DNA from: Branchiostoma floridae
Taxonomy: Eukaryota > Chordata > Leptocardii > Amphioxiformes > Branchiostomatidae
DNA: 64,000 nt
Assembly: GCF_000003815.2 (NCBI RefSeq)
Contig: NC_049983.1
Coordinates: forward strand, 26,566,192-26,630,191
Direction: 5' to 3'
The notes under the pieces are model-generated. The model was given only the letters and a program-made list of their open reading frames with translations, made no database searches and was not told the DNA's origin. The translations under genes and the position numbers were made by a program. Shown here one piece after another: positions 7,229 through 52,038 of this stretch. The first letter of the stretch is position 1, and every line of letters begins with the position of its first letter.

Positions 7229-10200
7229 CTGGGAAGTCAACAAGTGTAGAAAGACTTAAAAAGTTAAAGATTACGTCCCTTCACATGCTGTACATTAAAG
7301 TGGCTGGTAAAACTATATAAAGACCAGATAATGTAAACTATTGCCTTCAGTATGCTACAGGTACCCATGCAGTTAACATCAGTGGTGGCCTGGCAGAGAA
7401 AGTTTACCAAGTACAAGTTACTCTTCAAATCATGTTTGAAATCAAGAGACAACAGATAAGAAATTAAAGTAAGACTACACGTCATAAAGAAATTAGCTTG
7501 AAGAACACTTAGCCATCATTATGATTTGATAAACTTTGACAGATCTCTACATTGTTATCAGTATGATTTCAGCAAATGTCAGCAGGTTTGCACAACGTAC
7601 CTGGAGAGATTTGGCAGATGAACGCATATTGGTAGTAACATCTTCCGTCGACCCACTGGGCTTTTCGGCTGCGAATGTGGATATAAACGCAATCACCGTG
7701 GTAGTCGGGCTGTCCCAGAGCCCAGGGGGTGTACGTGCCCACAGCAGAGCCGTCCAACCATTCAAAGATCCCCTCTCTGCGCTGCAGGCCGATCCAGATG
7801 TTGCTGTCGTAAAAGGAGGCCAACATTGTTGGCAACAAGGCGTTGGTCCGATAGTCTCGGGGCATGGCGAGGGTGCCGCCGTCGTCACGACAGGCCGCGA
7901 CCGCATCGTTGAAGGTCTTACGTGTGTGGAAGACCTTGTAGCAGATTCTACGCCACATTGTATAGCCATTAGGACAAGATGCTGTAATATAGATTTGCAG
8001 TGGTGTGGAAAATATTTTAAAAAGCACCCCAATTTCCCCATTGACAATTTACTGCCTTTCGCTCATTAAAACTACATCCCTTTTGTGCTGATATTTTTTT
8101 AATTCACACAAGCTGTGTTCATCTTCAGAAACGTATTGATTTCCTTATATCATTGAATCCGCACATAAAAGGAGACAAATGGATGCCACAAAATACCCAA
8201 GGAAATGAAAGGAATCAATTTACCTAAGGAAATGAAAAGAAATCAACTTAAAACACACAATGGAACTTTGGACAAATTTAAGAAACTAAAACTATCTCAA
8301 TAGAATTAATGGAATGAATAAACAGATGAACCAACAACTTCCAAGATGTGTTTAAAATAGATAACTGCCTCACCTGCATGTTCAGCCGGTCTGGCAGGGC
8401 TTGGAGATTGGGACATCCCTGTTGGTCCGGGCGGCCCGACGGGTCCCTTCAGCCCTCGGGGGCCAACTGGACCGGGCGGCCCGACGGGTCCCTTCAGCCC
8501 TCGGGGCCCAACTGGACCGGGCGGCCCGACGGGTCCCTTCAGCCCTCGGGGCCCAGTTGGTCCGGGCGGCCCGTCCTTTCCCGCAGGGCCAGTTTGTCCC
8601 ATGGCTCCCTTTTCTCCGGGAGGGCCAGTTGGGCCAATGGGTCCCTTTTCTCCGGGAGGGCCAGGTGGCCCTGTAGACACTGTGCAAGCTGGGCCCATTG
8701 GTCCCTTTTTTACCGGAGGTCCGGATGGCCCAGCAGGCGCAGGTCCTGAAAAAAAGAATACTAGTATTGAGCTTGTTTGTGCAAACACGCCTCATTGCGT
8801 AAAACATGAATGAATGAACTTTCGGGACATACGACAATAAGTGCATCACCTGCATGTTCAGCCGGTACGGCAGGCCTTGGACACTCGGACATCCCAACTG
8901 GTCCTGGAAGCCCGTCCTTCCCTAAACGGTCAGTTGGCCCCATAGCTCCCTTTTCTCCCGGATATCCAGGTGGCCCGACAGACACAGGGCCAGCTGGCCC
9001 CATGGCTCCCTTTTGTCCCGGAGGTCCGGGTGGCCCTGGTAAAGAACAATTATTACAATTAAAGAATCTGTTTACACCGTTCATTGATTCAAAAGCATTC
9101 CAAACTAGTTCGTCCTTTACAAAGACAGGATCTCTAGATCATTACAACTTGCCTGGCGACTTAATCATCTCGAGAAGACGTTGCTCCAAGATCGCACTCT
9201 GGTTTTGTTCCTTGTCCAGGTTCTGTTTTAAGGCGACGGACAGTTGGGTTATCTTGTCCAGGTCGCGTTTCAAGACGTCAACAGTGACGGACAGTTGAGT
9301 TATGTTGTCCAGGTCGCGTTTCAAGACGTCAACAGTGACGGACAGTTGGGATATGTTGTCCAGGTCGCGTTTCAAAACGTCAGCAGTGATTGACAGTTGG
9401 GATATGTTGTCTAGCTCGTGTTTCAAGACGTCAACAGTCATGGTCAGTCCCGAAATATCCTAAAGACCGGTAAGGGTGTCAAACTTCGTTCAAAGTAAAA
9501 TGAACTACAGAAAAAAAGCTTCACAAATATTGATGAAAATGAAAATGGAAGAAAAATATCCAAGAGAAAGGAGAATGGGGACATTTTTAACACACTATTA
9601 TATAGTGTTTACCTCCTTCATCATGAAAATCAGAGGGGCGAGTGCCACGGCAACCAGCACGGCAAAGCCGGCTGCCATCCAGCTGCATTGCGAGCGGATG
9701 GAGCTGCAGAGCGCACGGCGGTCGCCTACTCCACCCGGGTACGTGCGGTCTGTTAAATCAATTGTCGTTTCTGATCAGTGCTTGGTGTCGCAATAAACTC
9801 AAAATATATCATTTCCTGTTCAGTTTCAACAAAAACAAGGCATTCGACACACAATCTACACCCTTCTGATGTAATTGAACATCGTTACGATTCACACTTA
9901 AAATGTTACGGGGAGGTTGTACTTTTAAATCACCCGATAAATTCGGTTTGTGTAAACTGTCTGACTTCAGTCTCTCTCTCTCACCATATCGTTCACATGG
10001 GTGCCTAGTCCAAGACACTGTAGAGTGTCGTGGCAACGTTTGAAAATTTTATATGGACTGAATACATGAATAGCAAAATGGAGTAGAAAGTGATTCTTAC
10101 AATGTGATCAACTTGCCAGGCACTGCACAGCAAATAGAACAGTTGATATGATCATACGGAAGGTCACCGACAATCACACCGTATCTCTAGGCAATATTCT

Positions 10201-16356: not shown

Positions 16357-19300
16357 CTGGGAAATTAAAGAGTTTAGAAAGACTAAGATTACTATTTTCA
16401 ATCAATCTAATGAATCAAAATTGTAAAACAAGGTTCTAGCAATCAGAGGCTGAATTGCTTCTCGTTGTATCTCTGCATGCGTTGTGCATAAATCTCAACA
16501 TTGAAAATTAAGTTATAATAATTAAGCACACTAAAATGTGATTGTAAGTTGAAATTAAGCTTAAGCTAGTATTGTTGTTACGACATATATTTGTTTTTTA
16601 TGACTAAAAATATAATCAGATAAATAGCTCGTCAGCAGTGTTAATTTGTTTCATTGACGGTACGGGACTGTTGCAAACTCTTGCAGCGTGGATCATGTAT
16701 AAACAGCAATTGTGATTTGATAAACTTTGCCAGATCTATACATAGTCAATTGCAAGCATAGTTGTCAGTATGATTTTTACCGAATCGCAGTAGGTTTGCA
16801 TGACGTACCTGGAGTGATTTGGCAGCTGAACGCAAGACTGTAGTCACATCTTGATTCATACCACGTGACTGTCCTGACGTGATCGCTGTTGTAGTTATAA
16901 ACGCAATCGCCACGGCCATCCGGCTGTCCCGGAGCCCAGATGGGGGACGTGCGTAGTGTAGAGCCGTCCAACCATTCAAAGATTCCCTCTTTGCCCTGAC
17001 GTCTTAGGCCGATCCAGAAGTTGTTTTTGTGAAAGTCGACCAGGAAGTCGTTGGTCGTGGCGTCTCGGGGCATGGCGAGGGTGCCGCCGTCTTCACCACA
17101 GGTCGCGGCCGCATCGTCGAAGGTCTTCCTTGTGTTAAAGGCCTTGTAGCAGATTCCACGCCACATTGCATAGCCATTCGGACAAGATGCTGTAAGAAAG
17201 ATTTACAGGAACAAGGGAAATATTGTGAAGATTCTAATTTCCTCACCGACTATTTATTTCTTGGCGCTCATCAAAATCATATCCCACTTTTTGCGGGCGG
17301 GTTTATGATTATGATTTAGGTAATGAATGAATACATTAAACATTTAGAACTGAGAAACGAAATAGCCTTAAAAATCTTATAGAGCAACATCCGAATGGAA
17401 CCAACTAGCACATGACTTACAAACTGTGAGTACATCCAAGATGTTTAGACAACAGCTAATGAAATGCATGCGAAGCTCAACTAATGGCACATGAAGTACT
17501 TGATAAGGTACATGCGTTTTTATGATATTTTAAATGACATGTTATATGTAGTTCATGTTATGTGTCCAAGTGGTATGTGTAATTATTACCTTCGCCAAGA
17601 AGGTTATATTTTGGGTAGCGTTTGTGTGTGTGTATGTTTGTAGGAAAACACCATAACTCAAGAACGCATGAATGGATTGTATTGATATTTGGTATGTGGG
17701 TAGGTATTGATGAGACCTAGAAATGATTAGATTTTGGGCCTCCTAGCGGCTTGCTATGGTACTGCAGCGGAACTTCCGGGTTGGATATCTCGAGTTCTGA
17801 ACATGCTGTGGCTATAATTTTTGAGTAGTAGACAGGTCTTGATGTCGAGAGTAAGTGGTATAGGTTTGGGCCCCCTAGCGGCTTGTTTTGGAACTGCAGG
17901 GTAGGTTTAGTGTCAGACTTTGAAAGGGAATAACTCAAGAAGGGGTTAACGGATTGTTATGATTTTTGGTATGTAGATAGCTTAAGTGATGCTTCATATA
18001 ATGACATAATGATTATGCAAATTGGTATCTAATTTGCATAATTAATGAGGAAATCGTGTAAACACGCCCAGTTCCATTATAGGTCCATTGCAACATGTGA
18101 CATTTGTAACTGAGAAACAGAAGAATATTGATAGATACATATTATGCAAAATAAAGACCTAATTTGCATAATTAATGAGAAAATGCTATAATGTCATTGT
18201 GGTAAATGACGGGAACTTCTTGCTTGTAGCATTTGGAAGCTATGTACAGGTGAACATCATTGAACATCAATTATGCAAATGAGATCCTCATTTGCATAAT
18301 TAATGACAAACACAATTGATAAGCAGTTGTAAAAGATCAAATCATTTGGCGAAGGTATGGGGTCGTGGAACTCTAGTTACCCCTGAAAAAGTAGATGTTG
18401 CAGTGATAAGCTGTCAACAACTAAAGAAGTCAATAAACAATAAAACAATACATTGACCATTAACTCTCGGGACGTGCTAAACTAAATGCCTCACCTGTAT
18501 ACGTATGTCCAGCCAGTCGGACAGGGCTTGGAGACTGAGACAACCCTGTTGGACCGGGCGGTCCGACGGGTCCCTTCCGCCCTCGGGGCCCAACTGGTCC
18601 GGGCGGCCCGTCCTCTCCCACAGGGCCAGCTGGCCCCATGGCTCCCTTTTCTCCCGGAGGTCCGGGTGGCCCGACAGACACAGGGCCAGCTGGCCCCATG
18701 GCTCCCTTTTCTCCCGGAGGTCCAGGAGGCCCGAAAGACACAGGGCCAGCTGGTCCCTTGGCTCCTTTTTCTCCCGGAGGTCCAGGAGGCCCGAAAGACA
18801 CAGGGCCAGCTGGTCCCATGGCTCCTTTTTCTCCGGGACGGCCAGCTGGCCCCATGGCTCCCTTTTCTGCCGGAGGTCCTGGTGGCCCTGGTAAAGAATA
18901 ATTAGAATTAGAGAGTCTGTTTAGATAGTTTATTGATTCAATAGCATTTCAAGGTAGTTAAAACACAGTTCGTCCTTTACCGGCAAGGAAATGTCATTAC
19001 AACTTACCTGGCGTCTTACTCATCTCGAGAAGACGTTGCTCAAAGACCGCACTCTGGTTTCGCTCCTTGTCAAGGCTGTGTTTTAAGGCGATGGACAGTT
19101 GGGATATGTTGTGCAGGTCGAGTTTCAAGACGTCAACAGTGACGGTCAGTCCCGATATTTCCTAAATACCGTTCAGGGTGTCAAACGTCAAAATAAAATG
19201 AACTACAGAAGAAGGTTCACAAATATTGATGAAAATGAGAAAGAAAGAAAAATTGCAGAAGAGAAAGAAAAATGGGGATTTTTTATACACTTGTGTTTAC

Positions 19301-37725: not shown

Positions 37726-40700
37726 GTAGCCGACATTTATTTTCATTTTTTGTCAATTGCCCGTTTAAGTAAAACAGGCATTTATTTCCAAAATCAGCAG
37801 AAACTTTTTAATAAGATGTGGTGTGCGATCACCAACCGGTGCATAGACTTTATTTGTCACAACTTAAAGTCAGGATCAGTTCCACGCTAAATCATTACAA
37901 GGCTAAAGTGGGGTTACTTATTGTAATTTTTCAGGCGAGAATATTTAGTGTTTATTTGCCACAAATCCCAAGTGAAAATTGACTCTGCCATATAACGATA
38001 CATATTCACTAGCGATACTTCATTTTCCTACGCAGAGACGAACATGCGTCATAAAATTACCAACGGGCATAGATCGCCCTATTATCATATAAATATTAAT
38101 GAGATTGCCTTATTTGGGTTGGGCACAAGCCAATCAGCGCGCAGCACCAAGATTTCAAATGTCCAATATGGCGGGCATGCAGGATGAAATATTTCTTGTG
38201 AGTTTTATTCGCGTGAGGATGGTTGTTTCTTCATGTTTAAGCACACTATAGATGTCACTATCATCCGTCCTGCTTATGAATATTAAATGAGCTTGCCTTA
38301 TTTGGGTACAACCCAATCAGCGAGCAATGCGAAGATTATAAATATCCAATATGGCGGGCATACAGGCTGATGAAATGTTCTATTTCTATTTAGCGAGAGC
38401 ATAATGGTTTCTTAATGTTTTTGGCTAGTATTTTGTGATACTGCACCCACTACCAACAGATCTTACAGATCTCAACTTTTGGTACCTTTTTTTTACAAGT
38501 TTGTGCGAAGAATGGACTGTCGGGCGTTGGAACGTTGTGATACAATCGCATCGCTCATGAACATCAAGAAGTTTGCCTTACTTATTTGAAGCTTTTGACA
38601 GCAGAAAGGCGTATTTCTGATTGGCTGACAGCTAGCTTGTAGTGATCACCCCCATAATACTATATGATAATTTTACCAACCTGATGAAACTATTTACCGA
38701 CTAAGAGTAGTTCTAAGTTTTTCATAAATATTTCATATGATGCACAGAAGTAACGATGGATAGTATTTGTCAAATTATAAGTTTTGTATGCCATTGTGTC
38801 ACACAATTAAGTTTTCTTGTTTCTGTGCATAAGATTTTTAAAATGTTGTAGTATAGCTTACAACCTATACCCCCATGCAGACCCTCTTTTCAGACTGGAC
38901 AGGGTTTTCCGTTGTCCGGACTGAGCAAGGTTTTCCAAAAATCCGTGTCTCAACTTCCTTAGGAAATAGAAAGTTGTGTGTGAGCGCCAGCATGTACAGT
39001 TTGTCATGACCAAACAAGACTATGTACCATTATAGGGATTTATAGGGAGTTTGCATGAGTCCATTTCACACAGATTTGTGGTCTTGCTCCGGTCCAACTG
39101 AGGGTACAACTTAAATCCTGAAGACTTTTCTAAATCTTCAATTGGAACTTGGTAGTCTGTCAGCTTTGGGTCGGGGTCGGAGCCGATTGGTTGGTTTGGG
39201 ACGATGAAAGCACCAATAGAAGTCGGGGCGTTGTGTCCCTCTGCAACAACGACTTTGTACAGATGTGTTGGAACAGCTACTTCACTCTGTCCTATTACCT
39301 GCAAGAAAGAAAATGGGACAGTCTGATCGGTGTCACAGTCTATAAAGGAATCTACAAGAAAAAAAGTTGCTGATAATGACAAAACTACCCAAGAAGACCA
39401 CTCAGTACTGATAAGATCTGGTTGATGTGATTTCCCTAAACAAGGATTCTTGGTGCTTGATGGTGTCAATTAAAAAATCGTCTGAGGGTCCGTCACAAAA
39501 GTGGTCACATTGGTTAGCTGGACTTGATGTATAGAGTCAGTCACTTGTGCGCTGTACAGGGTTGACCATACGTTATTGATACTTGAATCTACTCCTCACT
39601 CACTCACTCAGTTACACACACTCACTATCCATTATTTGATCATACTGCTGCTGGGATCCCTGACGCAGGGGTAGGCAGCAGTTGGCTAGTCTTCACACCT
39701 CGCTTACATGTGGCTCTGTCCAGTGGGTTCACCCCTGTTAGACCGCACACCTTGATGTCCCACCTGACACACTCCATCCAAGTTTTCCTCGGTCTACCAC
39801 GACCCCTGTTGCCTGACACTCAATATGACAAAATCTGACATGGCAAATCTTACTACGTTACAGAATAAACTATTTTCTGCTGGTAAACCTGCACTTACCG
39901 GGTACTTGACCACTTTCTGTTGGCCTTCCTGGCTGGGAAGGTACAGTGGGCCACTCAGTATGTACACATCCTCAAACCTGCTGGTCAGCTCCCTACAGTG
40001 CAGCTCAATCCTGTACCAGAACTCTTTGTTGTTCTCAATGTCCTGTGGGACGATGTTGGACAGGAGGAAAATATCGTCCATCGCTTCCTGTGATGAAAAA
40101 AACAGGCAGTGGTCGGATCAACGAGTATAGTACAGTATTTTTTATGCGCTGCAGTGAAGACATTTGTAACTTTCTTGCTCATTATTAGACTTTTTTTTTT
40201 ACTTTTACAATATATTCTCCTATTTTGCACATTGACAAAGACCTGCAGCTCACAGCAATGTTTGAAGTGTTTTGCAGCAACTTGTTGCTCATGCAGGCCA
40301 CATGTATTATAACCAATGGCTGTCTACCTCATAAGTAGAGCAAGGCATTTTTGGGGAGGACGAGAACACACCGAAATCAAATTTTACAAATGAGGATTCT
40401 CATGTTAATCAACTTTTATTAAGTGTTGTAACGTCATACTTTGAATTTCTCGAGTCAATTCTGGCTTTTCTTCTGCACCTGACTCAGGCTTTCCAAACCG
40501 GGGCCCGGCCGGGATGTTTGCAGAAACGAAAAATAGACGTGTTTACCAAGGAATATACACAAATTATGCCAATGACAAATTTTGCTTACGTTCTGTGTGT
40601 GTTTTATTGCCTTTTATATTATATTTTTCGTTTCTGAAAGCTACCCGACCGGGCCTCGAGTTGGGAAAAGGGACCTAAGCCTAAGCAATGGTGACTTTTC

Positions 40701-43700
40701 TATGTATACTGCACCTGACTAAACTTGTTGTCCCCGGCTGGTGCCATGTGGCCACAGGACCAGCCACTTTCCCAGTAGTCCTCGTACTGTGCTGTGAACA
40801 TCGGGTCCACGCTGGGGGGGTCGATGAAAGAGCTGGGCTGGGCCCTGGCCTGTCTACCTGGCCTGTCTACCTGGCCTGGCTATCACGTCAGGCCACCAAG
40901 ATCCCCCCCCCCATTCATACCCTCAGAAATTTTCGGCCTCTCATCTAGCTGCGCCCTCTAGTGGAATATAGACAAATTGCCGAGATTGTGTACTTAGTCC
41001 ATTGTCAAGACACCTACTAGCAAGATAAACTGATATCTATTCAATGTTACTTGTCTGAATTCAAATTTCTATTGGTCTGCAAATAGATAAACAACAACAT
41101 TGAGGGAGAAAGAAATGACGCTTGTGGTTTATGTTGATAACAACGATACCATACTCACAGTGTAACATTTGATCTAGTGGCAAATGTTACAAGTCAACAG
41201 TCAGTTTGGCCAAACAAAGGAGGTCATATTTAGGTCACCACGTATACCTGCAGGCCTGGGTATGGCAGAAACGGGTGCTGTCAGAGGATTGCACTTTGAC
41301 TTGACATTTTCCCCTTCACGTTATCAAAGGTTTGAAGATTGAATATTTAGTCTTCAATGTACATAACAAGGACTGACTGCTTTAAAACAAGGCTGTAATA
41401 CAGCAGTTTGTTTTTCATTTAGCAAATGTTAGTTTTACACACTGCTTTAGGGATCTGAGCCATCTGCTGTTTTCTCCCCCAGACAACTCTCTAAGGGAAC
41501 CAAGCATGTGACCCCGGTCATCTCAGACGCTCCACCTGTCATGTCTCTTTTAATAAAGCACGCAGCAACAGGCGCTTGTCCAGGGACAAAATAGTTGATT
41601 GAGAGGCATAGTAATTGCTACTCTTTAGCCCTGTCAGGGATCTCAGCCTGGCCTGTCAGCCCTGCCCCTTGACTGGCCCTTTGAGGAAGTAGAAGTATAA
41701 GACGTATAACTCTGTCTGGGAGGTATTAGGCCTTTCTACCAGCCAGAGATACAAGTACCACAGTTTGTGTCTTTTTGATCTGTCATCGACTAGCCAGTAC
41801 AACAAAAAGAGAAGTAATGTGCATGACGTGCTGTTTAGAGGTAAAAACAACACTTTCCTCTCCCAGTCCCCGAAGCCAACAATCTCCACCCATTCCAACA
41901 CAGAGTTCCCCAGCTGTTTCTCTGACCAGACCAAGGATACTCTGCTCTTCGGAAAACTTTGTACAGAAAGTACTGGAAAGTCTTAAATGACCGACTTGCC
42001 TGCTACGATCCTAGATACATAGACAAGAAGAACAGATTGGATTAGGGAAGTAACGTTAAACCTGGATGGATTAGATGGAAGCAAATGCTTGGTTCCTGGT
42101 AAACACAGTCCAACAGAGCAGAGTGTTAGAGAAAAAATTCCTGACTGTGTCTTATAAAACACAAAGTTACACTAGGTTCAGCAGCACTACCCAAATTTGT
42201 CAAAGGTTCCATAGGTTCCATACAAAGACCACAAGTTCTTCTGAACCATATGTTCTTCTAAACCATTACGTATTGTCAACTTGCACTTGGCCGGCTCTTT
42301 TCGTCACAGTATATATCACACAAGTCTATGGAAAAAATGATGTATTTTGCCCTGAGATTTTTTCACACCATTGTTCTTAGACAGAACGCCGAAAATATAA
42401 GGCTAGTCTAAGAGAATACTTGCCCTTATACCCTAATACTTTCTGCCTGGTGTAAGACGCAGTCTGAGGCATGATTTCTCTGACACTCTGCTCTGTTGGA
42501 CTGTGTCTACCAGGAACCCACATCATAGCAGCTCATATTTACGATCTTGTAGTTTTGTGCTTGTAGTTATGATGGAGACTTTCTTGCCTTTGTGATGTTA
42601 TTTCTATGCTTATCTAATGCCAAATACTGGTGTATATGGCACTTCTTTTTACATTCACAGTTTCTGTTAGCCAGGCCAGTGCGATACATACATAAAGTAG
42701 CTTATCCTAAATTTGTAATGTATTTCATTCAAGAACTGTATTTGATATATAACGTATTTCTTTTAGAATAACCGATGACATTCTCCAATCGGTTAACAGA
42801 CCATAATTTTCATTAGACCATTAAAGATTTTACAGTAGCTGTGGATATGGCTCCTGTCAAAAAAAGGCCTGTACAGCATTTTACCCGGAGGCAGCAGTAC
42901 AAAAGTCATAACTAAAACCTTTACCACCTACAATGCTACATGCAACACTATGGAAAAGGGGCTTTTAGAGTCTGATATTGCAAAACAATATAATGAAAAA
43001 ATATAGAGAACAGTGTGAGAACACTATCAGGCTGTTCTGGGATACAGGGCGGGTTGTGAGGACCAGATGTCAAAGCGTGCAGGGAAGGAGTAATTGCTCT
43101 CTCACAGACTGGCTGTGCCTCGATTTTCTGCTCCAGACAGGAGCATCTCCCCAAGGGCAAGGTGGTGAAGCTGAAAAAGGCTCTCTGGGCGAACAGTTGG
43201 GGGTTTAAACAAAAGAAATTAAGGAAAACGTTGTTTCACCCCAGCTATATAATAAAGGCACAAACTGTGGTACTTTACTATAGACTTGTGTGATAAATAC
43301 TGTGACGAAAAGAGCAGAAAAGTGCGACAGTGGTTTAGAAGAACATACGTATGGTTCAGAAAAACTTGTGGTCTTTGTATGGAACCTTTGACAAATTTGG
43401 GTAGTGCTGCTGAACCTAGTGTAACTTTGTGTTTTATAAGACACAGTCAGGAATGATTTCTCTAATACTCTGCTCTGTTGGACTGTGTCTACCAGGAACC
43501 AAGCATTTGCTTCCATCTAATCCATCCAGGTATAACGTTACTTCCCTAATCCAATCTGTTCTTCTTGTCTATGTATCTAGGATCGTAGCAGGCAAGTCGG
43601 TCATTTAAGACGTTCCAGTACTTTCTGTACAAAGTTTTCCGAAGAGCAGAGTATCCTTGGTCTGGTCAGAGAAACAGCTGGGGAACTCTGTGTTGGAATG

Positions 43701-46700
43701 GGTGGAGATTGTTGGCTTCGGGGACTGGGAGAGGAAAGTGTTGTTTTTACCTCTAAACAGCACGTCATGCACATTACTTCTCTTTTTGTTGTACTGGCTA
43801 GTCGATGACAGATCAAAAAGACACAAACTGTGGTACTTGTATCTCTGGCTGGTAGAAAGGCCTAATACCTCCCAGACAGAGTTATACGTCTTATACTTCT
43901 ACTTCCTCAAAGGGCCAGTCAAGGGGCAGGGCTGACAGGCCAGGCTGAGATCCCTGGCAGGGCTAAAGAGTAGCAATTACTATGCCTCTCAATCAACTAT
44001 TTTGTCCCTGGACAAGCGCCTGCTGCTGCTTTATTAAAAGAGACATGACAGGTGGAGCGTCTGAGATGACCGGGGTCACATGCTTGGTTCCCTTAGAGAG
44101 TTGTCTGGGGGAGAAAACAGCAGATGGCTCAGATCCCTAAAGCAGTGTGTTAAACTAACATTTGCTAAATAAAAACAAACTGCTGTATTACAGCCTTGTT
44201 TTAAAGCAGTCAGTCCTTGTTATGTACATTGAAGACTGAATATTCAATCTTCAAACCTTTGATAACGTGAAGGGGAAAATGTCAAGTCAAAGTGCAATCC
44301 TCTGACAGCACCCGTTTCTGCCATACCCAGGCCTGCAGTTACGTGGTGACCTAAATATGACCTCCTTTGTGACTGTTGCCACTAGATCAAATGTTACACT
44401 GTGAGTATGGTATCGTTGTTATCAACATCAACATCAACCACAAGCGTCATTTCTTTCTCCCTCAATGTTGTTGTTTATCTATTTGCAGACCAATAGAAAT
44501 TTAAATTCAGACAAGTAACATTGAATAGCTCGGCAATTTGTCTATATTCCACTAGAGGGCAGAGCTAGATGAGAGGCCGAAAATTTCTGAGGGTATGAAT
44601 GGGGGGGATCTTGGTGGCCTGACGTGATAGCCAGGCCAGGTAGACAGGCCAGGTAGACAGGCCAGGGGCCCAGCCCAGCTCTTTCATCGAACCCCACGCT
44701 GGGGTCTGGTTTGAACTTTGAGTTACTCCGATCGGCTGGACCTATGAAAACATACATAAACGTGTAAACATGTAAATATTTGCCCTGAGAAAGGTAGGCT
44801 ATTTGAATGGTTAAACCTACCATAAGATTTTAAGAGATTTTGTCCGAACAGTATCTGAACAACTTAGGTCTACATTTACGAGTAAAAAGGTCTTCATTTA
44901 AGAGTAAAAAGCTTGTTGTAAGAGAGTTGATTCCAAAACCCTGTCCCATATTAAAGACCTTTCATTGACCTTTCTCATAACCACTCCTAACTTAATGGTG
45001 CCCAAGAACAGTTCCTTCCATTCTAATCCTGAACGAAAATTTACTTGCTAGGATAAAATATTTCAGTCTATCTGTCCAAAAAATCTCAATTTGACAACAT
45101 GAAATTATATCCAACTTATTCAAGCTTCAGTTTGCTCTTTTGATCACATCAAAGATGGTATTTCTTTCATTTACTGATGCAGAAAACTTGTAGCAAGGAG
45201 CAACCTCGCCGACAAACTTCCAAACAAAAATATCCTTATTAGTAAACTATCAAATCCCAACCATGGTCTGGAGGTCATGTTCAGCTATGCGTGACAGAAT
45301 GCACTACAAGCACAGTAGCTAGCCCCCTTCACCGGCGTCTCTGGGGGCCTTGGCGTAATTATTTTTTTTGAGGGGGAGGTCTATTCGCGATTCTAACCGG
45401 GTGCTGGGGGCCCGTACAAGTTCCCGGTATATATTCCTTTCCCGGCATATCTTCCTTTTTCGGCGTATTCCCGGTTAAAAATCGCGACCCCCCCCCTCCC
45501 AAAAAAAAAATTACGCCAAGGCCCCCAGACACGCCGGTGAAGGAGGATACACAGCAGCACACACAGCTCACCCTGTAAATGCTGACTGGTGATGTGTTCG
45601 GCCACCCACAGTGGAGTTCTTCTGGCCTGGTCGTAAGCTAGAACATGGTTGTGGAGGTAATGCACGGCGGGGCCTCTCTCTGGGACGCCATACTTCAGAA
45701 TCTCTGCCCCTCTCTTAGCCAATGGGTCAACTGGAACTGGTTTGATTTGATTGATTTGATTTGATTTATTGGAATTGCAAACAATACAATACACGTGGGA
45801 CACAGGCAGCGATATGCTGGTGTCGTGGCCCACACATGAATACATACACACATATCAATTTGTACAAATGTTAAGATACAATCATTGCATACAATTTAAA
45901 ATTACAATACAATCTATAAATCTGGGTATCAATCAGTCAGTCCAGTTTGCCAGTCTTCGTTTAAACAATCTGAGACTACCAGCTTGCTTTATTGCCTGGG
46001 GAAGATCGTTCCAGAGGCGGGAAGCGTGCGGAATGAAGCTTGACTGGTAAGTCTGGGTCCTGCAGCGTGGTATGTGGAGATGGGTAGAGTTGCGAAGCCG
46101 TAGGCGTGTGGTTCTGTGCTCGCCTCTTGTGGTGGGTATCAGCGGTTGCAGGTGAGGAGGGACTAAGCCATTCACCAGTTTATACATGAGAACCATGGAC
46201 TGGGAATGTCTTCTAGTTGCTAGGCTGTCCCATCCAAGTTCTTGCATGACGACGCTTGATGGTGTTCGCCTAGCGGCCCCGGTGACAAGGCAGGCGGCTT
46301 GGTAGTGAACTCGCTCCAACATCTTGCTGGATGAAGAAGCCAGGTCCCCTAGCAGTACAGAGGCGTACTCCAGTTTTGGTCGAACCATCGTGTTGTACGC
46401 CATCTCTAGTGCCTCCCGGGATAGCTTGCCTCTGAGTTTCCACAGGAATCCCAGAGTTCTCCTGGCCTTGCTAGATGTAGTCTGGACGTGTTCAGTCCAA
46501 CGTAAGGTCTGGTGGATGGTGGTGCCCAGGTGAGTATAGAACGGCACTTGTTCAACTATCTGTCCAGCTATGTAGATTGTAGGTAGCTGTACTTTACTTC
46601 GAGGGGACTTTATACACATGACCTTGCACTTGTCCGGATGGAGCTCAAGGCCCCAGTCAACGAACCAGGTGGAGACGTGTTGAAGGTCAGTGTTTGTTGT

Positions 46701-49700
46701 GCTGGCCACTTCCTGAGCTGTCGGTCCGGACTTGGAAAGCGACGTGTCGTCAGCGAAGCAATTGATGTTTGAGGAACAAGGTAGGTCTTTGATGTCATTA
46801 ATGTACACAAGGAATAGGAGCGGTCCGAGGATACTTCCTTGTGGGACTCCTGCCTTAGTGTGCCCCCAGGAGGACGCCACGCCGTTAATCACAACTCGTT
46901 GTTGTCGGCCCGTGAGGTAGTCTGCAACCCACATGTTGAGGGCTCCCTTAACACCGTAACGGGAGAGCTTGTAGGTGAGACCATCGTGCCACACGGTGTC
47001 GAATGCTCGACGGACATCCAGGAAGACTGCGGCAGTGCAGGCAATGTTGGGATCGTCAATGGACTTGGCCCATTCGTCAACAAGCCGCATGAGCTGCAGT
47101 ACTGTTCCGTCTCCTTTCTTGAAGCCTGACTGGTTGACGTTAATCAGGTTGTTGTTCATAAGGTAAGCGTACAAGTGATTATGAACAAGTCTCTCCAAGA
47201 CCTTGGGAACTGTAGAAAGTAAGGCGATGGGCCGGTAGTTGGAGGGATTAGTGCGATCACCCTTCTTGTAGACCGGTGAGATGTTGCACCTTTTCCACTC
47301 TAAAGGGAACTGGCCGGTTGACAAGGAAAAATTAAACAGTTCGCACAGGGAGGCGCAGATGATAGGTGCTGCCTCCTTAAGCAGTCTGTTTGAAATCCCG
47401 TCAGGACCAGGGGCCTTGTTGGACTGGAGTGTTTGTAGGGTGCGTTCGACTTCCTCCACCGACACTACGATTGTGTTTAGTTCTTTATTGGTGAACCGAG
47501 GAAGTCGTCTGGTACAGTCAGGGTGGGTTGCTTCACTTGTAACGTTGACGAAGATGTCGTTTAGCAGTTCAGCCTTGTCCTTGTCCTTAGCCACCACTGA
47601 GCCGTTCGCAGAGAGAGCCGGGATTGCAGACTTGCCCTTCCCAGTTGCCTGTTTGAGAACAGACCAGAACTGACGAGCACCTTCCGCGGTTTTAAGTCTC
47701 TCGCTAACGGCAGCGTAGTATCCAGCTTCGGCTTGGCGAAGGTCTTTAGTCAGGCGGTTTTTGGCCTTTGTGTAACTTTTCCAATTTTCATTGGATGGCG
47801 AAGACTTAAAAGTTTTGTACAGTTCGGTTTTGTGTTGGATAGCCTCCAGTAATTCAGAGGTTACCCAGGGTTTACGTGGAGCTGTAGCCTTGATGTTCTT
47901 GTTGGGGATGGTGTTTTTTGCAACATTTAAGAACTTAGCCTTCCAGTTTGACCTCTAGATTACAAAGATGACAATCATAAATGGACCGATCCAGTCGAAC
48001 GCCATATCGAACAAATAGAACCCTATATTCTATTTCGAACACCTCCGTCAAAAACTAGCCCAGTGAGACAGAAATGCCTATTTTTGGCGGAGGTGTTCGA
48101 AATAGAACCATGATCGAACAGGGGGTGGGGTTTTGGGATAGGTTCATTGTATGGAGGTGTCTGTAAAAGCGACATTTCCAAAAAAAGAAAATATTGACAC
48201 ATGACAATGTGTAAAAGTTTGAAGCATTTAAATCTTAATAGCTTTTTCATTCCACTTGCGAACTGTGTGTTTGAACTTGAAATTGATTTTCCCCAAAGAA
48301 CATCTAGGAGATATTTTGCTTAGGATACAGCTCAATCAGGTAGCACAGCAAGTACTGTAGATTTATTTATGCTCGCGGGGATAAAATTTCGCGGTAGGAG
48401 CGGAAATGATTCTTTTGAGGTGTTTTAAGTTCGCATTTGGAACGATATTGTTGTATATTAGTAATACACGACGGGACCCTTACGGACCACAAGTCTGAAA
48501 CCATTATGGCGCATGGCCTCGAAATGTTTATCACGTCTCGAACAGAACGGAAAAGAACCCCTAGTTTATAACGTTATATACACACGTAAATATGATGGAG
48601 AATGGCCTCTATCCTGCCATTGGGAATCGAGTTTTACTACGTGATAGCAGCACATTTCCATTTGATCCCCTTCTGATTTAATTCTAACACTGTATATTCA
48701 TCATACTTAGTTACGTTTGTGATGTTGATTATGAAGTCGAAGTCGTTGTTTAAAAGGGTAACATCGATCGTCTTTTGTTTGTTCAACATATTGCCAAGTG
48801 TATTGAGTTTTACTTTTACTACGCGATAATAAAACGTTTCCAGTAGATCTCCATTAGAAAGATCAGGAAGAAAACCGCGAAAATTTCAAGATTTATAATA
48901 CTTGTGCCAAATTAAGTGAGTCGAGGATAAAGAAACTAAGTAACTGCCACATTTGTACAACAGTAACAATTTTCTATGCAACAATAATTGGAAAGTATGA
49001 AAGTGTTCATAATCACCCCGAACGTGTAAGAAGACCGGACGAAGTGACAAGATCAGTCCACGACAGGAGACGACTCCTTGCAGTTTGCAGGTATGCAAGA
49101 TACGGAACACTGAACAGGTGCGTGTCGTCTCCAACTCAGCTCGATTTGTCAGGTCAAAGGGCCAAGGTCATAGGTTACGATACCTGATGAACAGGTACTC
49201 GTACAACACAGTACTCGTACAACCGACTGTTGATTTCATACGCGATGGTTTGTGTGGTAATCTACGGGGTTATTAGCTCCATGTTACAGGAATTGTACAA
49301 GAATGTGTCCAAAGTATCGCTTTTCCATAGGAATGTTTGGAGCCAGCCACTTGTAGAAAGTGGGCCATGCAGACTGCCTTTGGGACTGGAGACATTTAGC
49401 CTAGAAACCTGTTACTGTCAACTGTCATTGACAGCTGTCACGTTGGCCATAGATAATCTTTGTTAAATTATTACTTTTGTATGCAATTGTGTCACACTAC
49501 AAATTGATGTTGTTGTATCTGTGCATAAGATTTTTTTAAAAGTTGTTGCATAGCTTACAACTTTTACCCCATACAGACCCTCCCTTCAGACCGGACAGGG
49601 TTTTCCACAGTCCGGACTAGACAGGGTTTTCCTAGTCTTCATTCTGAAATCTAAATGGTCAGGAAGGATGAAAAATGGCCAACAAACAGAGCATGGTATA

Positions 49701-52038
49701 CCGAGTAATGGAGGCTTCATTTTTGTTCTTTCACAAATTGTTCTTTGACCTTGGAATTCATGTTGGCATATGCACATTCTATGGCATTGATATATATTTT
49801 GCGATGCATCTGCTCATTTTGCAGTTTTAACATTTACAGTTGTTTTTTTCAAACGGCCGAAAATTGATGCGCGCGGATGTCATCCATATAATCAAATCAA
49901 TATGGCCTATAAGTGAGCATGAGTGGTCAGAAAAACGGAGTCGAACTGAACAGAGAACTATGACTAGGATTTGAATCTGCGCAGGAGAATTCACTTGTTG
50001 AACTGAGGAGACATACGGACCCCCCCCCCCTAATAAAAATGGACTAGGAATGTTGTGTTCCTAAGTTTTTTTGCTTGAACGAACGGGTCTAGCAAACACC
50101 TTCAAATCTTCGTCTACTTTTGGCTGCACCGCTAATTTTTGATCTGACATCTGAGTGAAGAACTTTAAACAGACCCCTTCTAATTTTACACTATGGTAAA
50201 AGATCTATGATTTGAAAAAAAAAATGATGCAAGAATTTGTAACAATGAAGTAAACATTGTACAGTAGAAGCCGCCTAATTTTACACCCCATTTGAAATAT
50301 GCATATCATGTGAATATCCGAATGCTGCAACAAAGCAAAGGTATTAAGCTGGACCGCACCACTACGGGATGTGGGTTTTCATGCAATTAACAGAAGTGTG
50401 CGATTATCCGTTGTACAATTAACTGGCTTGTACTGTTCTTATTTCTTAAGTGATTTTCGTCTTTGTTTACTTTTGTTTCAGCTATGTTGTGATTGTGAGA
50501 TACATATTTGCATACTTACACCATGATGATGAAAAAGCATTTCAATTTTACATTGTTAAACTGTATTTATTGTATCACTGAATTTACTTACCTATTCTTT
50601 ATCCTGTGTTGGACAAAAGGCTGTAAGAAAAGACTATAACATCGAGTGAAGTCCGGGATCAATAGGGAATTTTGAATGACCCTAATCCTTCTTCAGAACC
50701 GTAATTGGAAATACAGCATTAAATTTCAAAGGTGTTAACTATTTCTTTTTTTCTTTGTTAATTCATTAATTTCTTGAGCTGTTATGTGGACGCAAACTCG
50801 TTGTAACCTCTACAGACCGCACCTACCCGGGTGGAGCAAGCGGCCGCCGTACCCTCTGTAGCTTCATCCGCTCCCACCAAAGCTGTGTGGCCGCTGGCAT
50901 TGCCGTGCTGCTGGGCCTGTTAGCAGTGGGACTCGCCCCTCTGACGTTTATCAATAAAGAGGTAAAGACATCTACCAGTAAGCTTTAAACATCTTTGTTC
51001 AAAAATATTTACTTTGTCTATTTTTTTGGTAATTGATGGTTAAGTCAGAACATGCTTCGTCCCACCCACCCACCTTTTTTTAAAGTTTGGTATTTTGACG
51101 TTCGTCTTCAGGAAATATCTCAACTGTCCATTACCGTTAACGCATTGAAGCGCGACCAAGACGACATGCGCCAACTGTCCACCACTGTTGACGCCTTGAA
51201 GCGCGACCAAGACGGCATGCGTCAGCTGTCCACCACTGTTGACGCCTTGAAGCGCAACCAAGATGACATGCGCCAGCTGTCCACCACTGTTGACGCCTTG
51301 AAGCGCGACCAAGATGACATACGCCAGCTGTCCACCACTGTTGACGCCTTGAAGCGCGACCAAGATGACATACGCCAGCTGTCCACCACTGTTGACGCCT
51401 TGAAGCGCGACCAAGATGACATACGCCAGCTGTCCACCACTGTTGACGCCTTGAAGCGCGACCAAGATGACATACGCCAGCTGTCCACCTCTGTTGACGC
51501 CTTGAAGCGCGACCAAGATGACATACGCCAGCTGTCCACCACTGTTGACGCCTTGAAGCGCGACCAAGATGACATACGCCAGCTGTCCACCACTGTTGAC
51601 GCCTTGAAGCTCGACCTGGATAAGGAGCGAAACCGAACCGCTGCTTTGGAGCAGCGTCTTCACAAGATAAGTAAGACGCCAGGTAAGTTGGGTTCGAGTT
51701 TGTTTGTTATGTGTACTGCATTAATTTGTAATGGTCTATTTGCAAGCATCAGGAGAATGAAAAGAGCAAAATATTGGGCACTGACTAATATTATGTCGTC
51801 GTATGATATGATTTTCCTCATCAATACCACTCCTATGCCTGCAGAATTATAATTATCACCGTCAATATCTTCCCCCAGCTTTCGGCTGCTTTCAGGGTTA
51901 CTCGGCATTTATTGATGTCTCTTTGAGGTACATATATGAAATGTTGCGCGGTAATTCCCCAATTTTGTTAGGACTGACCGTATATGCATACATACCAACA
52001 TATATATATATATATATTAAGTTGTTTAGCTTCATTTC

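Follow-up and report, generated by a model that had tools for sequence, protein, structure and literature searches.

A foldback transposon interrupts exon 3 of an EXOG duplicate in Branchiostoma floridae, an insertion that probably came late in the decay of that copy

Foldback elements are a described class of transposon. Tetris of Drosophila virilis, in the available part of its description (PMC4079207), has long inverted arms, internal tandem repeats and a variable, non-coding middle, is flanked by duplications of 8-10 bp, shares its outer ends with shorter elements and is reported with no autonomous copy found; the same authors assign most foldback elements to the Mutator superfamily. Long arms together with duplications of 8-11 bp are also seen in Mutator-like elements (MULE), among them Phantom and the outgroup Rehavkus, and Rehavkus has a minisatellite near one end, according to a 2019 review that, as far as its available text goes, could not verify that Branchiostoma floridae has Mutator-type transposases (PMC6446971). 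Here we analyse a stretch of 64,000 nucleotides of that genome (G000:C5:26566192-26630191, hereafter the window), in which an element resembling these systems splits exon 3 of a copy of EXOG, a mitochondrial DNA-repair gene that encodes a conserved nuclease. A preliminary description of the window had called the element type little known, which the existence of a described class does not support. The evidence set out below makes it very probable that a recent insertion of this foldback element came late in the decay of an EXOG duplicate, a complete paralogue of which is present elsewhere in the genome.

The element, a non-autonomous foldback transposon of 3,878 bp, lies at 40817..44694 (no strand assigned) and was placed from its arms, its termini, the ends of sibling copies and the register of the flanking duplication. 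Most of its length consists of inverted arms, the left of ∼1.5 kb (40817..42335, plus strand) and the right of ∼1.4 kb (43274..44694, minus strand), the inner edge of each being approximate, around a middle of ∼0.9 kb. The complementary blocks measure 652, 171, 149, 102, 79, 71, 70, 31 and 30 nt and are 92-100% complementary; as a single alignment the arms span 1,531 columns at 90.6% identity including indels, in agreement with the arm length of about 1.4-1.5 kb first proposed. At each end, GATGAAAGAGCTGGGCTGGGCCC precedes three 13-bp tandem units (40844..40882, plus strand, at the left end; 44628..44666, minus strand, at the right). The arms and termini bear out the idea that a foldback element splits one EXOG coding exon. 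The proposed limits, 40818 and 44693, located the element correctly with each end misplaced by 1 bp; sibling copies begin GGGTTCGATG, which sets the bounds at 40817 and 44694. In the window copy the right end has GGGTTCGATG, as in most siblings, and the left end has GGGGTCGATG. The middles are non-coding and vary from copy to copy; the longest open reading frame (ORF) that overlaps the window element has 103 aa, the ORFs of this element not having been run against Pfam.

The insertion is flanked by a target-site duplication, CACGCTGGG, at 40808..40816 and 44695..44703 (neither with a strand), placed in the register of the sibling copies. In that register the two flanks agree at 9/9 positions, compared with 2-4/9 in four other registers tried. 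The 11-bp pair noted earlier, CCACGCTGGGG, is indeed present on both sides, but the true duplication is 9 bp; the longer pair consists of this duplication and one chance match per side, which arises because the element ends in G/C. The duplication was then examined in 17 insertions of the family, giving 18 end pairings, with 304 cross pairs as control. Eleven of the 18 pairings showed a perfect 9 bp in the same register, including that of sibling L009 (siblings are numbered by locus), which is uninformative as it sits in a CA repeat, and perfect 10-bp pairs, read by eye, were found at L012, L057 and L059. A mismatch-free duplication of 9-10 bp, within the 8-11 bp of MULE, was therefore present in 14/18 pairings; of the remainder, L015 (9/10) and L058 (7/9) were imperfect, L055 was unclear and L057b, a different way of pairing the ends at L057, failed. 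The count leaves out L014, where the fetched stretch stops short of the right end, L017, L018 and L022-L026, which have no end pair in the stretch, and L060, for which a 9-bp pair (TAAATTTGG) was identified by eye. The cross pairs matched at a mean of 2.4/9 positions and a maximum of 7, which excludes chance as the source of the duplications. The duplication shows that the element entered through a staggered 9-bp cut.

The family was surveyed by searching the whole genome (513 Mb in 431 contigs) with a 22-mer from the element end, allowing up to 2 mismatches, and with the same pattern written backwards as a control. This gave 62 forward and 62 reverse matches and none for the control; the genome contains at least 124 ends of the family, whose duplications are of 9-10 bp. 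No report of it was found in our literature searches. Judged by eye, copies range from ∼0.4 kb (L059) through a common class of 1.7-1.9 kb and copies of 4 kb to 8.5 kb (L009). The nearest relatives seen were L009, whose left arm differs by 1.45% over 1,517 sites and which has an additional 3.7 kb in its middle, and L017 (1.5% over 1,250 sites). Six ORFs from L009, L015 and L017 were run against Pfam, of which two from L017 matched RING, B-box and MATH and four matched nothing; the last group includes the three ORFs tried from L009, which was considered as an autonomous partner. At L017:1578-4117 a single foldback arm ends ∼170 bp before the RING, B-box and MATH frames, which perhaps belong to a neighbouring or captured gene and not to a transposase. 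L054 (5.6 kb between its ends) has no frame above 142 aa and L060 (4.3 kb) none above 173 aa, the frames of both being outside the Pfam search. The genome itself has 27 matches to the MULE transposase domain PF10551, two of them in open frames of more than 1,300 aa, and the shortest distance from such a match to a family end, estimated by eye with ∼100 of the 124 ends listed, was ∼63 kb. Family ends were sought at two of the 27 regions (L061 and L062) and found at neither; L061 has inverted repeats of its own of ∼350 bp. The window element is thus a non-autonomous foldback transposon and not a proven MULE, and it probably uses a Mutator-type transposase, given the 9-10 bp target duplications and the long arms.

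The gene lies on the minus strand. The certain 3′ part of exon 2 is at 45572..45728, its start being uncertain owing to a long interspersed nuclear element (LINE); exon 3 comprises a first part of 48 nt (44694..44741, where the duplication is counted once) and a second part of 92 nt (40715..40806); exon 4 is at 39899..40087 and the last exon at 39020..39298. With the element and one copy of the duplication left out, the two parts of exon 3 join to 140 nt, and the expectation that removal restores the frame is upheld by two paralogues in which the exon is uninterrupted. A search of the assembly with 44694-46200 returned EXOG matches only at the window and at these two genes, both on contig C211, and no second allele; the genome has three EXOG copies, counting that in the window. 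Paralogue A (C211:51379-53837, with exon 1 at ∼C211:50.9 kb) is a complete EXOG with exon 1, the SRGH motif and the Wing domain, and its closest solved relative is human EXOG (structures 7r6v and 5t3v, in the available parts of PMC5418593 and PMC6547421; 374 bits, compared with 190 for CG8862 and 179 for EndoG). Paralogue B lies at ∼C211:60.5-62.4 kb, and a segment upstream of it resembles exon 1 of A (71.5% over 123 nt). By eye, an in-frame stop follows soon after the core of paralogue B (L043:8400-8440); it too appears to have lost the Wing domain and would be EndoG-like in layout. The exon 3 of A (140 nt) and that of B serve as empty-site controls. We rejected the idea that C211 represents the other haplotype of the locus in the window because the divergence (67-78% alike to A including intron, Ks 0.26) was judged far beyond allelic. 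Other Endonuclease_NS matches are at 15.1 and 24.3 Mb on C8; a C8 Endonuclease_NS gene, which reads DRGH by eye, was set aside as EndoG-like. With two more EXOG copies present, one of them complete, the earlier description of the insertion as the knock-out of a conserved mitochondrial nuclease goes too far.

The window copy bears several lesions besides the element. Its Endonuclease_NS core is present, but the second part of exon 3 encodes SCGH where paralogues A and B and human EXOG have SRGH, a difference of two base changes in one codon, and the Cys occupies the position of human R138, a residue that binds the backbone of the DNA next to the scissile bond (as given in the available part of PMC5418593). 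The last exon ends CKLPINPYNGT*, whereas paralogue A runs for 60 aa past CKL; these residues form the Wing domain, which the window copy lacks. Human EXOG without its Wing is largely impaired in 5′-3′ exonuclease activity, according to the portion of PMC6547421 at hand. Exon 1 of paralogue A, the exon for the N-terminal (mitochondrial) segment, was sought in the whole window and gave a best match of 22 nt (E = 0.084), which is not significant. At the start of exon 2 sits a young LINE (45746..47947, minus strand) with an open 673-aa frame holding a reverse transcriptase (RVT_1); two other copies in the genome are 99% identical to it over 2,180-2,190 nt of a 2,191-nt query. Paralogue A reads CTAG-TGGTCAAGCCAGTTCCAG-TTGACC at the insertion point, which falls inside exon 2 or ∼10 bp before its acceptor, depending on which of two in-phase acceptors is used; paralogue B, read by eye, supports the second position. 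After exon 3 there is a small palindromic insertion of ∼222 bp (40485..40706, no strand) with the 12-bp repeat AGTCAGGTGCAG on both sides, and as this repeat spans the exon-3 splice donor the donor has been duplicated. As for the foldback element, a frame read through from the exon leaves it after KFKPDPSV and continues for ∼50 codons to a stop at 44542-44544, which precedes most of the nuclease domain, so that a product read in this way would presumably be without function. Skipping of exon 3 was considered as a rescue and rejected, 140 nt not being a multiple of 3.

The substitution pattern bears on the order of these events. The ratio of nonsynonymous to synonymous divergence (Ka/Ks) was 0.33 between the window copy and B and 0.18 between A and B. 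Private synonymous and nonsynonymous changes numbered 14:22 in the window copy, 12:3 in A and 22.5:18.5 in B, and the nonsynonymous excess in the window copy was significant by Fisher's test against A (p = 0.013) and against A and B together (p = 0.033), the fractional counts for B being rounded to 18 and 23. In the element, 8 substitutions private to the left arm and 11 private to the right were found per 1,430 aligned sites (0.56% and 0.77%); another 23 differences, mostly at the inner edge where the alignment is poor, could not be polarised. On the assumption that the two arms were alike at insertion, the age of the element would be at most ∼0.6-0.8% per arm, an upper bound only, which does not support the description of the event as dated. 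The private synonymous change of the gene is 14/∼156 sites, or ∼9%, and since the arm divergence is less than a tenth of this, most of the private changes in the gene probably predate the element. It probably arrived in a copy that was already relaxed, provided that the arms had been homogenised.

Several observations weigh against such a recent insertion, mobilised by a Mutator-type transposase, into a decayed copy. Over the 246 codons compared, the window copy is free of stops and frameshifts, Ka/Ks relative to A is 0.28, the nonsynonymous excess is not significant against B alone (p = 0.17) and private nonsynonymous changes fall below the number predicted from the neutral site ratio (p = 0.014); because of the open frame, the Ka/Ks value and the last of these tests, the copy must be regarded as long constrained and the order of its lesions as unproven. 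Exon 1 may have diverged or be located beyond the window. In the available part of PMC5418593, human EXOG lacking the Wing still cuts DNA, with its substrate specificity lost, so loss of the Wing alone need not inactivate the enzyme. Conversion between the arms can make their divergence an underestimate of age, and no family member bearing a transposase was seen in the copies read, with only six ORFs run against Pfam. On balance, the window copy appears to have been long constrained and then relaxed. That a fully working EXOG was knocked out by the element, with the other lesions following later, would agree with coding parts that are all open where compared and with the low Ka/Ks against A; it is nevertheless quite unlikely, as the change from SRGH to SCGH requires two substitutions in one codon, the arms are young compared with the private substitutions of the gene, and exon 1 and the Wing are missing. 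A normal EXOG at the time of insertion, as the preliminary description supposed, is improbable on these grounds and given the LINE at the edge of exon 2.

We also considered whether the element could be spliced out as a new intron, leaving the paralogue expressed. Introners, as treated in the available part of PMC9860276, are transposon-like units with inverted ends and duplications that can lie inside coding exons, their splice sites can derive from the duplication as could happen here, and in one case, from Aureococcus, the transcript becomes 12 bp longer. At this locus the element end would provide a 5′ site (GGG followed by GTTCGA, with the intron beginning at 44692), and the duplication together with the C-rich element end would provide a 3′ site (CCCCCCCAG followed by CGTGG, with the exon resuming at 40811). 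This would lengthen the exon by CGTGGG, 6 nt or two codons, with the frame kept and both dinucleotides present by eye, and a run of seven C precedes the AG. However, the donor scored −3.72 on a donor matrix and came 86th among the 250 GT sites of the element and its vicinity (the exon-3 donor of the gene itself, at 0.16, is weak on this matrix too), the frame would fit by luck one time in three, and the other lesions in the copy weigh against an expressed product, as does a length of 3.9 kb with 1.4-kb hairpin arms when the median lengths of introner families are 30-654 nt (PMC9860276, available part). Splicing of this kind is thus quite unlikely. A bolder version, in which an intron is caught at its birth, with the duplication giving the 3′ site, the element end the 5′ site and the 1.4-kb hairpin bringing the two together, so that a Wing-less variant with an altered motif persists, would be very improbable. 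Misplacement of the element or its arms into an intact exon during assembly is extremely unlikely: long inverted repeats pose difficulties for assembly and runs of N occur in siblings L010, L020 and L021, but the window element is free of N, its arms hold private substitutions of their own and a perfect 9-bp duplication in the sibling register is not expected from a misjoin.

Elsewhere in the window, long-period tandem arrays were seen at 8423-8668, 18619-18888 and 51124-51616; units of 36, 45 and 60 bp look collagen-like, and a 51-bp unit is repeated 9.7 times at 96%.

We favour the explanation that a late insertion struck a decaying duplicate. A foldback transposon, moved in trans by a transposase probably of the Mutator-like superfamily, would have inserted recently by cut and paste into exon 3 of one EXOG paralogue, duplicating CACGCTGGG. 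The host copy was probably relaxed by then, with the Arg of its catalytic motif changed, the Wing gone and no exon 1 found, and the complete paralogue on C211 could carry EXOG function. The locus offers a base-exact insertion with uninterrupted paralogous exons for comparison, outlines a route by which a duplicated mitochondrial nuclease may decay through its motif, Wing domain, first exon and mobile elements, and identifies the foldback family as recently active elements in a lancelet genome.

Compared with the systems described above, the closest likeness is to Tetris, drawn here without sequence comparison; Tetris differs in being a fly element and in seeding satellite DNA, as its available description has it (PMC4079207). 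The window element differs from introners in its weak donor and much larger size, and the interrupted gene differs from human EXOG in lacking exon 1 and the Wing and in having SCGH for SRGH. From MULE the family is set apart by the transposase, which was not found in the foldback copies read here, and by its arms of ∼1.4-1.5 kb, those listed for MULE in the available part of the 2019 review reaching 613 bp (PMC6446971). The 27 PF10551 matches in this genome contrast with that review, which in the same part lacks confirmed MULE transposases for Branchiostoma floridae (PMC6446971).

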